Shown here: in pieces, positions 28,773 through 33,205 of the stretch
How the letters are laid out: every line of letters starts with the position of its first letter
Position numbering within the stretch: position 1 is the first letter of the stretch
Origin: Chitinophagales bacterium
GTDB lineage: Bacteria; Bacteroidota; Bacteroidia; Chitinophagales; Chitinophagaceae
NCBI GenBank assembly: GCA_025353485.1
Contig: JANXQO010000029.1
Location: forward strand, 1-54,457
Direction of reading: 5' to 3'
DNA length: 54,457 bases
Translations under genes and position numbers: made by a program
The notes under the pieces: model-generated
Database searches by the model: none
What the model was told of the DNA's origin: nothing
Seen by the model: only the letters and a program-made list of their open reading frames with translations

Positions 28773-29897
28773 ATGACTATTGTAGAAGTAACTGATAAAA
28801 ACAGGATTAAAAAATTTCTTGCGCTTCCGCGAAAGCTATATAAAAATGATCCCAATTTTATTTCTCCGCTTGATAAGGATTTAGAAGCTGTATTCGATCC
28901 GGCTCTTAATAATTTTCATTCCCACGGAATTATTAAACGCTGGATAGCAATAGATAATTCCGGTGAAACTGTTGGCCGCATTGCAGCTTTTATCAATAAT
29001 CAAAAAAATAAAAACCCTGATTTTATAATTGGCGGCATTGGTTTTTTTGAAAGCATTAATGAGGAGGCAACTGCGTTTCTTTTGTTAGATACTGCAAAGC
29101 AATGGCTTCAGCAAAACAATGCAAAAGCTATGGATGGGCCCATAAACTTTGGAGAAAATGATAAGTACTGGGGCATGCTGGTAGAAGGTTTTGTTCCGCC
29201 AAGTATGGGGATGAATTATAACCCTTCTTATTATCAAACTTTATTTGAAAAGTATGGATTTGAAAAACAATACGATCAGTTTACCAACGTCATCCAGGTT
29301 TCAAAACCTTTCCCCGAGCGGTTTTCAAAGATAGCAGATTGGATAGCCAATAAACCGGAATATAAATTTGTACATTTTGAGAATAAGAATTTTAAAAAAT
29401 TTGCAAAAGATTTTAGAGAAATTTATAATGATGCATGGAGTGAGTTTGAAGATTTTACTCCCATAGAATTTGATACATTGAAAGAGTCCTTTCGGGAAAT
29501 GAAACCAATCGTAGATGAAAAAATAATATGGTTCGCCTACTCTCATGATGAACCAATTGCTTTTATTCTTGCATTGCCTGATATAAATGTTTTACTAAAA
29601 TCATTCAACGGCAAATTGAATTTGTGGAATAAGGTCAGGTTTTTTTTGAAAATGAAAACTACAACCATTGACCGCATTCGGTTTATTGTTATGGGATGCA
29701 AAACAAAATTTCAAAACAAAGGAATAGAAAGCGGACTGATAAAGAAATTACAGATTGAAGTGTTACCCAGGAATACAATTAAAGAAGCCGAGCTGGCATG
29801 GGTAGGAGATTGGAATACTAAAATGATTGCTATACATGAAGCAACAGGGGCAACCAGGGAAAAAGTTCATCGCACTTATCGTTATATATTTGTGTGA
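28773..29897 (+). CDS. GNAT-like acyltransferase, YghO type
   Basis: A 374-residue cytoplasmic protein. It begins TIVEVTDKNRIKKFLALPRKLYKNDPNFISPL, the usual start of the YghO-like N-acyltransferase family, and has AMDGPINFGENDKYWGMLVEGF and a C-terminal acetyltransferase lobe (FQNKGIESGLIKKLQIE, LAWVGDWNTKMIAIHEATGA). The acceptor is unknown. The gene stands alone, with a TACCTTTA-type promoter box just upstream. Confidence 0.85.
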   Translation: MTIVEVTDKNRIKKFLALPRKLYKNDPNFISPLDKDLEAVFDPALNNFHSHGIIKRWIAIDNSGETVGRIAAFINNQKNKNPDFIIGGIGFFESINEEATAFLLLDTAKQWLQQNNAKAMDGPINFGENDKYWGMLVEGFVPPSMGMNYNPSYYQTLFEKYGFEKQYDQFTNVIQVSKPFPERFSKIADWIANKPEYKFVHFENKNFKKFAKDFREIYNDAWSEFEDFTPIEFDTLKESFREMKPIVDEKIIWFAYSHDEPIAFILALPDINVLLKSFNGKLNLWNKVRFFLKMKTTTIDRIRFIVMGCKTKFQNKGIESGLIKKLQIEVLPRNTIKEAELAWVGDWNTKMIAIHEATGATREKVHRTYRYIFV

Positions 29898-30062: not shown

Positions 30063-31073
30063 ATGAAATTAGTTTCTTATCATAAAGACGGGCAGGATCA
30101 ATTGGCAATTTTAGTAGATGGCTTATTATATGATACTGACCTGATGCACCCTGACCTGCCGGTTAGCATGTCAATGTTTCTTAATTATTGGGAAGATGTG
30201 TTGCCTGTTGCTTTAGGGATAAACAGGATACTTATAGACGGAAAAGTTTCACGTCAACAGGGTATACCATATGAAGATGTTCAGGTCTTAGCGCCTGTTC
30301 CACATCCTGTAAGTTGCAGAGATGCGTATGCTTTTAGGCAACATGTTGCTTCGGCAAGACGTAATCGCAAAGTTGATATGATCCCTGAATTTGACCAATA
30401 TCCCATTTTTTATTTTACCAACCATAACAGTATTAAAGGGCCCGGAGAAGTTGTTTGTATGCCTGATCATTTTGAAAAGCTTGATTTTGAATTGGAGGCT
30501 GCCATTGTTATTTGTAAGCCCGGTAAAAATATAAAAGCTGAAGAAGCTGACGAATACATTGGTGGCTATATGGTGATGAATGATCTTAGTGCACGAAAAT
30601 TACAAATGGAAGAAATGTTATTAAATCTTGGGCCTGCTAAAGGGAAAGATTTTGCCACAACTACAGGCCCCATGCTGGTTACACCGGATGAGTTAGAAGA
30701 ATTTAAAGTTGACTGCAAACCGGGACATACCGGCAATGCATATAATTTATCAATGAAATGTTGGGTTAATGATGTGCTGGTAAGCGAAGGAAATTTAGCT
30801 GATATGGATTGGACATTTGCAGAAATTATTGAAAGAGCTTCTTATGGTGTACAATTATTTCCCGGGGATATTATCGGCAGCGGCACAGTAGGTACCGGAT
30901 GTTTTTTAGAATTGAATGGTACAGGAAAACTGAACGATCCTGAATACAAAGAACAATGGCTGAAAGAAGGAGATGTGGTGGAAATGGAAATTGAAAATTT
31001 AGGGAAACTCAGCAATACAATTGTAAAAGATGAAAGTGATTTTTCTATTTTAGCATTGAAGAAAAATGTTTAA
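30063..31073 (+). CDS. Fumarylacetoacetate hydrolase family protein
   Basis: A 336-residue FAH-fold enzyme. Metal-binding acidic residues sit in DFELEAAIVI and GYMVMNDLSAR, and the later GDIIGSGTVGTGC segment is a family hallmark. The family cleaves or hydrates 1,3-diketones, including catechol-pathway and acylpyruvate substrates. No other aromatic-degradation gene is in the window, so the substrate is unclear. The gene starts directly after an inverted-repeat element. Confidence 0.92.
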   Translation: MKLVSYHKDGQDQLAILVDGLLYDTDLMHPDLPVSMSMFLNYWEDVLPVALGINRILIDGKVSRQQGIPYEDVQVLAPVPHPVSCRDAYAFRQHVASARRNRKVDMIPEFDQYPIFYFTNHNSIKGPGEVVCMPDHFEKLDFELEAAIVICKPGKNIKAEEADEYIGGYMVMNDLSARKLQMEEMLLNLGPAKGKDFATTTGPMLVTPDELEEFKVDCKPGHTGNAYNLSMKCWVNDVLVSEGNLADMDWTFAEIIERASYGVQLFPGDIIGSGTVGTGCFLELNGTGKLNDPEYKEQWLKEGDVVEMEIENLGKLSNTIVKDESDFSILALKKNV

Positions 31074-31076
31074 TCT

Positions 31077-31176
31077 CCACCGCAGAGAACAGGAGAAGCA
31101 GAGTTTTCGCAGAGAAAAATTAAATCAATTGAATAACTCTGCGTAAACTCCTTTAACTCTTTTCTCTGCGGTAAAA
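31077..31176. repeat. GCAGAG-type hairpin repeat, left copy
   Basis: The outer arms ACCGCAGAGAA (31079-31089) and TTCTCTGCGGT (31162-31172) pair perfectly. The inner arms GCAGAGTT (31098-31105) and AACTCTGC (31135-31142) also pair. Its first 40 bases are identical to those of the right copy at 31635. Confidence 0.88.
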
Positions 31177-31201
31177 CTACACATAGATAAAATTTAATCT
31201 A

Positions 31202-31588
31202 ATGACAAAAGAAAGATTAAATGAATTAGGAGGAATTATTTTGGATGCTGCAATAACAGTTCATAAGGAACTTGGTCCGGGTTTATTAGAATCTGCATAT
31301 CGATTAGCTTTAAAAAGAGAATTAGAATTAAGAAATTTATATGTCAGAATGCATGTACCTGTAGATTTAATTTATAAAGAACTTGATTTGGGCAAATGCT
31401 ATGAAATAGATTTGTTAGTAGAAGAAGAGATAATTATTGAAACCAAATCATGCGACGGTATAACTCCGATATTTATAGCACAAGTAATTACTTACCTCAA
31501 ACTATATAATAAAGCTCTAGGGTATCTTATTAATTTTAATGTCCCTCTTTTAAAAGACGGATTTAAAAGGATTGTTTATAATTTATAA
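31202..31588 (+). CDS. GxxExxY family protein (PD-(D/E)xK-like)
   Basis: A 128-residue protein. The family-naming motif is G27LLE30SAY33. The later segment YEIDLLVEEEIIIETKS, with D70 and E80-x-K82, has the spacing of a PD-(D/E)xK nuclease core, so a nucleic-acid role is inferred by fold. No experimental function is known to me. The gene is framed by long hairpin repeats in direct orientation on both sides, and a decayed half copy (31590-31629) directly follows its stop. The association suggests a mobile or repeat-linked cassette. Confidence 0.9.
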   Translation: MTKERLNELGGIILDAAITVHKELGPGLLESAYRLALKRELELRNLYVRMHVPVDLIYKELDLGKCYEIDLLVEEEIIIETKSCDGITPIFIAQVITYLKLYNKALGYLINFNVPLLKDGFKRIVYNL

Positions 31589-31589
31589 T

Positions 31590-31735
31590 TTCTCTTGGCA
31601 AACTCTATTACTCTTCCCTTCGTGGTAAACAATACCACCGCAGAGAACAGGAGAAGCAGAGTTTTCGCAGAGAAGAAACTTAATTCAATAACAAGACTCT
31701 GCGCAAACTCTATTAACTCACGTTCTCTGCGGTAA
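31590..31735. repeat. Right-hand GCAGAG hairpin repeat, with a half copy
   Basis: 31635-31735 is a full copy, with arms ACCGCAGAGAA (31637-31647) and TTCTCTGCGGT (31723-31733). 31590-31629 resembles only its 3' arm (GCAAACTCTATTA, then TTCGTGGTAAA), so it is a decayed half. The full copy ends 9 bases before the next gene's start. Confidence 0.82.
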
Positions 31736-31744
31736 AAGAAAAAA

Positions 31745-32632
31745 ATGTTTAAAACAATAACTCTAAAAGATATCAAACCCGCCGAGGTTCAGAATTATCT
31801 TCAGCATGCCATCGGGCCCCGGCCTATATGTTTTGCAAGCACGATTGATAAAAAAGGAAATGTAAATCTTAGCCCTTTTAGTTTTTTTAATTTGTTCAGC
31901 ACCAATCCTGCAGTTATAGTTTTTTCACCATCACGCAGAGGAAGAGACAATACAACCAAACATACATTACAGAATATTTTAGAAGTTCCGGAAGTGGCAG
32001 TAAATATTGTATCCTATCATATGTTACAACAGGTAAGTTTAAGTAGCTGCGAATTTCCCAAAGACGTTGATGAATTTATAAAAGCAGGATTTACCAAAGA
32101 GCCTTCACAATTAATTAAACCACCAAGAGTAAAAGAAAGCCCTGTACAATTAGAATGCAAAGTGCTTGAAGTAAAACCTTTGGGAACAGAAGGCGGCGCA
32201 GGAAATATAGTGATCGCAGAAGTATTGATGATGCACATCAATGAAAATGTTCTTAATGAAAATGGAAATATTGATCAAAAAAAATTAGACCTGGCAGCAA
32301 GGCTTGGTGGTAATTGGTATACAAGAGCAAATGCTTCTACTATTTTTGAAGTGGAGAAACCAAACACGCTTTTGGGTATTGGTGTGGATGCTTTGCCGGA
32401 AAATATTCGCAACAGTAAAATTCTTACCGGAAATAATTTAGGCCAGCTGGCTAATGTTTATGAAACACCTTTTGTTGATCCTGCATTTGAAGATGATAAA
32501 TTGAAAAATATATTCCTATATTACTCCACCGATCCTGAAGAAATGGAAAAGGAATTACACTTATTTGCAAAAGAGTTACTTGATGATGGAAAAGTAAAGG
32601 AAGCCTGGCAGGTGTTGTTGGCATTGAATTAA
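31745..32632 (+). CDS. Flavin reductase-like FMN-binding protein
   Basis: A 295-residue protein. The FMN-binding split-barrel domain is typified by IGPRPICFASTIDKKGNVNLSPFSFFNLFS near 27-56, then SPSRRGRDNTTKHTLQNI and VNIVSYHMLQQVSLSS. The family gives flavin reductase or FMN-dependent monooxygenase partners. The start lies 9 bases beyond the GCAGAG hairpin. The physiological partner is unknown. Confidence 0.92.
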   Translation: MFKTITLKDIKPAEVQNYLQHAIGPRPICFASTIDKKGNVNLSPFSFFNLFSTNPAVIVFSPSRRGRDNTTKHTLQNILEVPEVAVNIVSYHMLQQVSLSSCEFPKDVDEFIKAGFTKEPSQLIKPPRVKESPVQLECKVLEVKPLGTEGGAGNIVIAEVLMMHINENVLNENGNIDQKKLDLAARLGGNWYTRANASTIFEVEKPNTLLGIGVDALPENIRNSKILTGNNLGQLANVYETPFVDPAFEDDKLKNIFLYYSTDPEEMEKELHLFAKELLDDGKVKEAWQVLLALN

Positions 32633-32659: not shown

Positions 32660-33205
32660 ATGAGTTCTGCAATAAAAATATTACCACATTATACTTACGA
32701 AGAATATTGCCTTTGGGAAGGCAGATGGGAACTGATTGACGGCATTCCTTATGCAATGAGCCCTGCACCAATTCCGCAACATCAATTGGTAACAGCTAAC
32801 TTAATTTATGAATTAAAAGATGCAATAAAAAAAAATAAATGCAAACATTGCAAAGTCTATGATTTTATTGATGTAAAAGTTTCTGAAGATACAATTCTGC
32901 AGCCTGATCTATCTATAGTTTGCAAACCTATCACTAAAAATTTTTTAGATTTTCCTGCAGCCCTTGTTGTGGAAATTTTATCTCCAGTTACCGCATTTAA
33001 AGATCGTCATGTAAAATTTTCTTTGTATGAAAAAATGGGGATTAAATATTTTCTCCTGATTGATATTGATAAAAGATCTATAGAAATTAATACGCTTCAA
33101 AGTAGCCAATACCAACTTACTACTTACACAGGTAGCCAGGCCTTTCAATTTATAGTAGAAGAGGATTGTAAAATAGAGGTTGAATTAAATAACATCTGGG
33201 AATAG
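32660..33205 (+). CDS. Uma2 family putative endonuclease
   Basis: A 181-residue protein of the DUF820/Uma2 group. It opens with YTYEEYCLWEGRWELIDGIPYAMSP. The PD-(D/E)xK-like core follows: QPDLSIVCKP, ALVVEILSP and YEKMGIKYFLLIDIDKRSIEI. Nuclease activity is predicted by fold; the biological target is unknown. Uma2 genes are usually multicopy in genomes that carry them. It starts 28 bp after the flavin reductase gene. Confidence 0.9.
   Translation: MSSAIKILPHYTYEEYCLWEGRWELIDGIPYAMSPAPIPQHQLVTANLIYELKDAIKKNKCKHCKVYDFIDVKVSEDTILQPDLSIVCKPITKNFLDFPAALVVEILSPVTAFKDRHVKFSLYEKMGIKYFLLIDIDKRSIEINTLQSSQYQLTTYTGSQAFQFIVEEDCKIEVELNNIWE

Follow-up and report, generated by a model that had tools for sequence, protein, structure and literature searches.

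A GxxExxY gene between inverted arms at an operon junction, a candidate hairpin-ended mobile cassette of Bacteroidota

The GxxExxY locus and its protein

The window, that is, the whole stretch of 54,457 nt of Chitinophagales DNA analyzed here (contig JANXQO010000029.1), contains a GxxExxY gene lodged between a gene of the FAA hydrolase family (FAH) and a flavin reductase-like gene (FR). The features of the locus are collected in Table 1. Between the two hairpins GxxExxY was the only gene, without a known transposase, and the insert lies between two protein genes, not inside an rRNA gene. A Uma2-family gene was observed at 32660 to 33205, 27 nt 3' of the flavin reductase-like gene, with no arms around it by eye.

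Table 1. Coordinates in the window of the GxxExxY gene, its repeats and its neighbors
Feature	Position	Strand	Basis or remark
Upstream host gene, FAA hydrolase family (FAH)	30063–31073	+	PF01557
12-bp direct repeat AAAAATGTTTAA, left copy, end of upstream gene	31062–31073	+	
Hairpin unit 1	31077–31176	+	Arms 31079–31114 and 31137–31172; left half occupies the left-arm position of the cassette
Leader	31189–31201	+	Common to the deleted copy at G000:C52 (local alignment)
GxxExxY gene, 128 aa, predicted PD-(D/E)XK nuclease fold	31202–31588	+	Profiles, alignment, model
Decayed right arm, directly 3' of the GxxExxY stop codon	31590–31629	+	Position agrees with the right arms of relatives
Hairpin unit 2	31635–31737	+	Repeat comparison, fold
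12-bp direct repeat AAAAATGTTTAA, right copy, start of downstream gene	31741–31752	+	
Downstream host gene, flavin reductase-like (FR)	31745–32632	+	PF01613

The initial annotation had described two hairpins of about 100 bp flanking the GxxExxY gene and a decayed half copy 3' of its stop codon, and both observations were confirmed. The first 40 bases of the two hairpins are identical, and over 43 nt their identity is 98%; the outer arms ACCGCAGAGAA/TTCTCTGCGGT were found in them. For its part, the decayed copy is real: positions 31592 to 31610 match a portion of hairpin 2's right arm at 89%. When folded alone, hairpin 1 reached −40.6 kcal/mol (z, −8.3) and hairpin 2 reached −43.6 kcal/mol (z, −10.1), and in neither case was any of 200 shuffles as good. 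The window contains 12 occurrences of the motif CGCAGAG, compared with 1.45 expected, and 8 of the 12 are inside the two hairpins. A consensus scan of positions 30900 to 31900 revealed no terminator-like site, and Rfam gave no match up to an E value of 1 between positions 29500 and 33500. The 12-bp direct repeat at the borders of the insert is a possible target duplication, as a single case, and the near-empty FAH/FR junctions of relatives (see below) overlap or almost touch its site.

The protein is a clear member of its family, with scores of 125 bits for TIGR04256 (cut-off, 35) and 122 bits for PF13366 (PDDEXK_3; cut-off, 22). PF13366 was the only Pfam family found in it, and no match to a RAYT (HUH) transposase was obtained. 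In an alignment of 44 sequences, residues G27, E30, Y33, D70, E80 and K82 were invariant. The predicted model had a pLDDT of 94.9, and its top Foldseek matches were lambda exonuclease and Cas4 SSO0001 (probability, 0.92 to 1.0), with a best E value of 6.8e-3 and none at or below 0.001; a sequence search retrieved no solved relative up to an E value of 1. The PD-(D/E)xK core that had been anticipated from the sequence was thus recovered in the invariant D70, E80 and K82, in the PF13366 match and in a model close to lambda exonuclease and Cas4, and the protein is predicted to have a PD-(D/E)XK nuclease fold. The median dN/dS value was 0.09 over 39 pairs, which are not independent and include one gene entered three times, indicating that the protein is under purifying selection and has been kept working. 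Neither the 5027 models of PADLOC nor PHROGs gave a match up to an E value of 1, and a role as defense or phage cargo was rejected on that basis.

Inverted arms, arm types and solo hairpins

To compare the surroundings of GxxExxY genes independently of any motif, a local alignment was made for each gene between its 150 upstream nucleotides and the reverse complement of its 150 downstream nucleotides. The main set comprised 157 GxxExxY loci, some of which overlap; the number of ORFs or fragments in them was 162, of which 150 were different. These loci came from the genomes of relatives and from a contig scan in which 80 of 340 confirmed places were kept; the contig-scan loci that carry names belong mostly to Chitinophagaceae and other Bacteroidota, and some come from other phyla. 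A score of at least 16 was reached by 94 of 145 testable GxxExxY genes, compared with 17 of 363 other ORFs at the same loci, and a score of at least 20 was reached by 65 of 145 and 7 of 363, respectively. When each context was represented by a single locus, 22 of 26 passed at the window's own junction, as did 61 of 104 elsewhere. For a second set, 148 genomes from across the phylum of the window were searched, 74 of which had the family; the 30 top loci gave 20 of 31 GxxExxY genes versus 4 of 28 controls. As a further control, the Uma2 family, which is annotated as a putative nuclease and occurs in the same relatives, was examined, and only 2 of the 29 readable loci among 30 fetched passed.

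The initial annotation had proposed a repeat-plus-protein cassette, naming a lack of enrichment of hairpins at GxxExxY loci as the observation that would speak against it. Inverted arms were enriched at these loci in both sets, and the counts given above, together with the Uma2 control, rule out a chance pairing of hairpin and gene. The arm-gene-arm unit is present in about two-thirds of the GxxExxY genes tested, the genes that failed being 51 of 145 in the main set and 11 of 31 in the second (about one-third). Where arms were detected, the right one began a median of 3 nt after the GxxExxY stop codon. The proposed cassette therefore stands, but its layout had to be corrected: the basic unit is left arm, gene and right arm. 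In the window copy, hairpin 1 overlies the cognate left arm and a decayed right arm is left, and we read the two complete hairpins as additional units at the cassette edges, which would be derivatives that settled there. Direct arm repeats were also enriched (49 of 145 versus 28 of 363 at scores of at least 16), as expected from complete hairpin units on both sides.

The arms fell into several types, namely GCAGAG, GCAAAG/GCTAAG, ACAGAT, CATAG, ACGGAG and, finally, a GATTA type whose ends resemble TTGTCTGAACCATGATT. By means of hexamer classes, a type was assigned to 105 of the 162 GxxExxY genes, 97 of which were on the protein tree. On these 97 rows arm type required 13 changes, compared with a mean of 49.9 and a minimum of 43 in 200 shuffles; outside the window's junction (73 rows) the figures were 13 changes versus 35.05 in the shuffled data, with a minimum of 30. 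The source genome alone (G000) contains four arm types among the six typable of its seven GxxExxY genes. Arm type thus follows the protein. Moreover, the left and right arms of one locus matched each other better than they matched the arms of other loci (permutation P of about 1e-4).

The two arms also change together. At the junction of the window, 20 arm pairs were compared, and 10 of their 26 base pairs were changed on both sides. Such both-side changes amounted to 30 cells, compared with 9.6 after shuffling (none of 500 shuffles reached this value), and slid controls were far lower. The structure was drawn from one row, so that the pairing percentage is biased toward that row, the both-side changes less so. 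Alternatively, the co-variation could reflect gene conversion between arms.

The linkage count that had been suggested for the GCAGAG hairpin gave a mixed outcome. While paired arms were enriched in relatives, the GCAGAG hairpin by itself yields a single linked place in the source genome, and the wider case therefore rests on the relatives. Since arm sequence varies among protein clades, a search restricted to GCAGAG misses many cassettes. The source genome has about 17 GCAGAG hairpins (clustered hits), 15 of which lack an adjoining GxxExxY gene; within 150 bp of such a gene only the two hairpins of the window gene were found, compared with about 0.01 at random, these two not being independent of each other.

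One of the lone hairpins (C52:51491–51695) retains the leader and the first and last codons of a GxxExxY gene. The gene-end remnants scored 29 and 21, whereas 300 shuffles reached no more than 21 and 15, respectively, and this hairpin is, judging by its sequence, a clear deletion derivative of a GxxExxY cassette. When four hairpin inserts were submitted to the remnant test, that at C52 gave the clear result just described, those at C61 and C141 slightly exceeded the maxima of 20 shuffles, and that at C159 gave none. The end motif TGTCTGAAYYAYGRTT, with at most one mismatch, occurs 94 times in the source genome (49 exact), compared with one occurrence of the reversed control. A loose scan of 30 fetched loci with this motif yielded 15 paired units, 12 of which measured 94 to 146 bp, the others being 214, 302 and 440 bp long. 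Another GxxExxY gene, on C75 (L303), lies between two near-identical 123-bp units with 107 exact bases, a layout like that of the window. Tandem or clustered hairpin units, with repeats of at least 200 bp, were also observed beside the GxxExxY genes at L040, L041, L049, L081, L087 and L186.

Junctions with and without the cassette

To follow the cassette at the window's own site, the 30 best FAH/FR loci from 123 genomes with the upstream gene were inspected. Seven carried a GxxExxY gene with arms, three carried a TIGR02436 four-helix-bundle gene, and nine had gaps of −11 to 40 nt, the remaining 11 showing longer gaps, other inserts or no visible flavin reductase gene. At L241 only a short hairpin was present, and the gene downstream of the TIGR02436 insert at L236 was not seen. 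Two of the seven GxxExxY genes look damaged by eye, one being shortened (L230) and the other carrying a stop (L231). For the GxxExxY proteins at the window's own junction, 5 changes were counted for 28 rows. Within Chitinophagaceae, inheritance of the gene at this junction is mostly vertical.

A second junction, nuoF/nuoG, was analyzed in the 30 best loci from 46 genomes. Eight contained a GxxExxY gene, one a TIGR02436 gene (L324) and 13 estimated gaps of 47 nt or less, with eight other or unresolved cases. In genome G008, whose NuoF is 96% identical to that of the source genome, the gap between nuoF and nuoG is 4 nt, compared with 481 nt in the source genome, and no GxxExxY match was found anywhere in the genome. 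The cassette-free sites in close relatives that the initial annotation had suggested looking for were thus found, as near-empty junctions, at both FAH/FR and nuoF/nuoG. A single clade of the eight nuo-junction GxxExxY proteins was rejected (p-AU, 0.0008) on a 38-row tree whose rows were picked after a larger tree had been viewed. This result implies that the genes either reached nuoF/nuoG repeatedly or left it for other sites, so that they moved in either case.

Cassettes were found in further operons. One lies between mutA and mutB (identity read from the flanks), and another, in a Bernardetia plasmid, separates ade from a gene for mannose-1-phosphate guanylyltransferase. In a Sphingomonas plasmid (NZ_CP155749.1; L310), a GxxExxY gene lies between fabD and fabG of the fatty-acid operon, with a periodic arm visible upstream only. 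With the window protein alone as the query, GxxExxY genes were nearly absent from plasmids (6 of 72,556) and were detected in none of 50,697 phages.

A general short target-site duplication was not found in 94 loci, where repeats of at least 6 nt occurred in 13.8%, compared with 10.7% in mismatched pairs. Repeats of at least 8 nt were present in four of these loci (L118, L178, L060 and L265), compared with about 0.8 expected. Among the cassettes compared, no near-identical pair occupied two sites within a single genome. Two candidates for recent moves within a genome were rejected, since the F. flavus copies turned out to be larger repeats and L160 and L164 share their flanks. Direct repeats of coding sequence were observed outside the arms at L046 (42 bp), L085 (59 bp), L005 (/L070) (87 bp) and L084 (109 bp); they could be target duplications, in which the end or start of a neighbor gene was copied at insertion, or the products of older recombination.

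The placement of the genes was also biased. Among 115 non-site loci with both neighbors called, by a simple ORF rule, the neighbors were codirectional in 93, compared with 253 of 386 control pairs. At 81 of these loci GxxExxY was in the sense orientation to both neighbors, and at 12 it was antisense to both.

Interpretation and relation to known systems

Taken together, we think that these genes probably belong to a widespread chromosomal selfish cassette with hairpin ends and MITE-like derivatives, in which the nuclease gene lies between the arms and of which the window holds one copy. Base pairing of the two arms would give a single long stem that carries the gene in its loop. The cassette would lodge, mostly sense-wise, in the interval from one operon gene's stop codon to the start codon of the next gene. 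Its presence there would be tolerated because neither codon is damaged and because the stem closes around the inserted sequence; at the RNA level, the paired arms would make the insert tolerable or allow its trimming, in the manner of 23S rRNA intervening sequences. Once folded into hairpins, the ends of the element may be recognized by its own nuclease, which would make a break or a resected end, from which the unit would be copied to new junctions, such spread being rare. The nuclease would thus drive the movement of the cassette, and the solo hairpins would be derivatives that have lost the gene. Weighing against this reading are the lack of a general short target duplication and of a freshly moved pair in the comparisons made, the one-third of GxxExxY genes that failed the arm test, the mostly vertical descent at the window's junction, the two damaged-looking genes at FAH/FR and the lone hairpins in which no gene remnant was seen.

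An RNA-level insert is the alternative that fares best, although we hold it to be unlikely. Here the arms would work at the level of the operon mRNA and form a stem that has the gene in its loop, with RNase III trimming the insert or the stem shielding the flanking genes; the protein would have a house role of its own, and the rare spread would not involve its activity. The bias toward sense orientation and codirectional junctions and the arm co-variation are both in agreement with this explanation, as is the likeness of its anatomy to the Coxiella 23S intervening sequence in the available part of its description (PMC4990558). However, movement to or from the nuoF/nuoG junction, arm type that tracks the protein and solo hairpins elsewhere in the genome all point to spread as DNA.

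It is rather improbable that the hairpins are independent parasites that settle beside GxxExxY genes, or that the nuclease acts as a guard that clears palindromes and gathers them. The large share of GCAGAG hairpins away from these genes (15 of about 17) and the arrays of units accumulated beside some of them (L040, L041, L049, L081 and L087) would fit either version, but both are at odds with an arm that abuts the stop codon, with the dependence of arm type on the protein and with the solo hairpin at C52 that retains gene remnants. Very little credence is due to the view that an accessory gene is here surrounded by ordinary transcription terminators or by stem-loops of the REP kind, since, although stable stem-loops do sit between genes, the consensus scan and Rfam were negative at the locus and Uma2, an accessory family of the same genomes, generally lacked arms (2 of 29). 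Equally far-fetched is an addiction or toxin-like selfish gene with the palindromes as regulatory sites, kept by the harm caused by its loss: purifying selection and long residence at one junction would suit it, but there is no partner gene between the arms, close relatives have near-empty junctions and the PADLOC defense library gave no match.

The selfish cassette proposed for GxxExxY may have a counterpart in the TIGR02436 genes (S23-family four-helix-bundle), which share the FAH/FR and nuoF/nuoG junctions with it. When located in protein operons, these genes had inverted arms at 16 of the 28 readable loci among 30, and an earlier ORF picker had given 12 of 24 readable for the same 30 loci. 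Their arms (L188 to L217, L221, L236, L243 and L324) are periodic but of other sequence types. As a tentative extension, in which we have less than even confidence, the nuclease and the S23 four-helix-bundle proteins could be two cargo lines of a separate mobile class, "ORF-in-a-stem" cassettes that insert at operon junctions. This class would comprise many periodic inverted-arm types, each of them linked to a particular small clade of proteins; the scattered CGCAGAG, CACAGAG, CGCAAAG and TGTCTGAACC palindromes would be its remains, and the rRNA intervening sequences its first-noticed members.

If true, these proposals would give a role to GxxExxY, a family known mainly by the name of its motif, would account for some of the periodic palindromes that these genomes contain and would unite them with rRNA intervening sequences. 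With arms, near-empty junctions and a small, well-modeled nuclease identified, mobility is open to direct test.

Several known systems resemble the cassette in part. With pairs of MITEs and autonomous elements it shares terminal inverted repeats and the coexistence of gene-bearing and short gene-less copies, including one clear deletion derivative; unlike classical insertion sequences and MITEs, it lacks a known transposase and a general short target duplication. REP palindromes are extragenic and tied to RAYT (TnpA-REP), an HUH/Y1 transposase. The likeness lies in extragenic palindromes tied to one protein family, whereas the cassette protein is of the predicted PD-(D/E)XK type and its gene lies between the arms. 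Although the window protein belongs clearly to the TIGR04256/PF13366 family, the names of those models are silent on arms or mobility. Periodic TAACTGA heptamers near start codons, with no evident transfer mechanism, have been described in the available part of another report (PMC4679880), and they may be related to the cassettes. In the literature searched, which included few subscription papers and no preprints and some of it in partial text, no earlier description of GxxExxY arm cassettes was found.

The closest known kind, as far as the available part of its description goes, is the intervening sequence of 23S rRNA that carries an ORF for S23p (PMC4990558). In Coxiella this is a 428-nt insert whose complementary ends form a stem, with a small S23p ORF in the loop; the ORF is described there as undergoing reductive evolution, and the function and origin of the intervening sequence are called unclear (PMC4990558). 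On that description, both systems have complementary ends with an ORF in the loop, as borne out for the cassette by the arm tests and by the co-variation in relatives. They differ in that the cassette lies between protein genes and encodes, instead of S23p, a GxxExxY protein of predicted nuclease fold that is under purifying selection.
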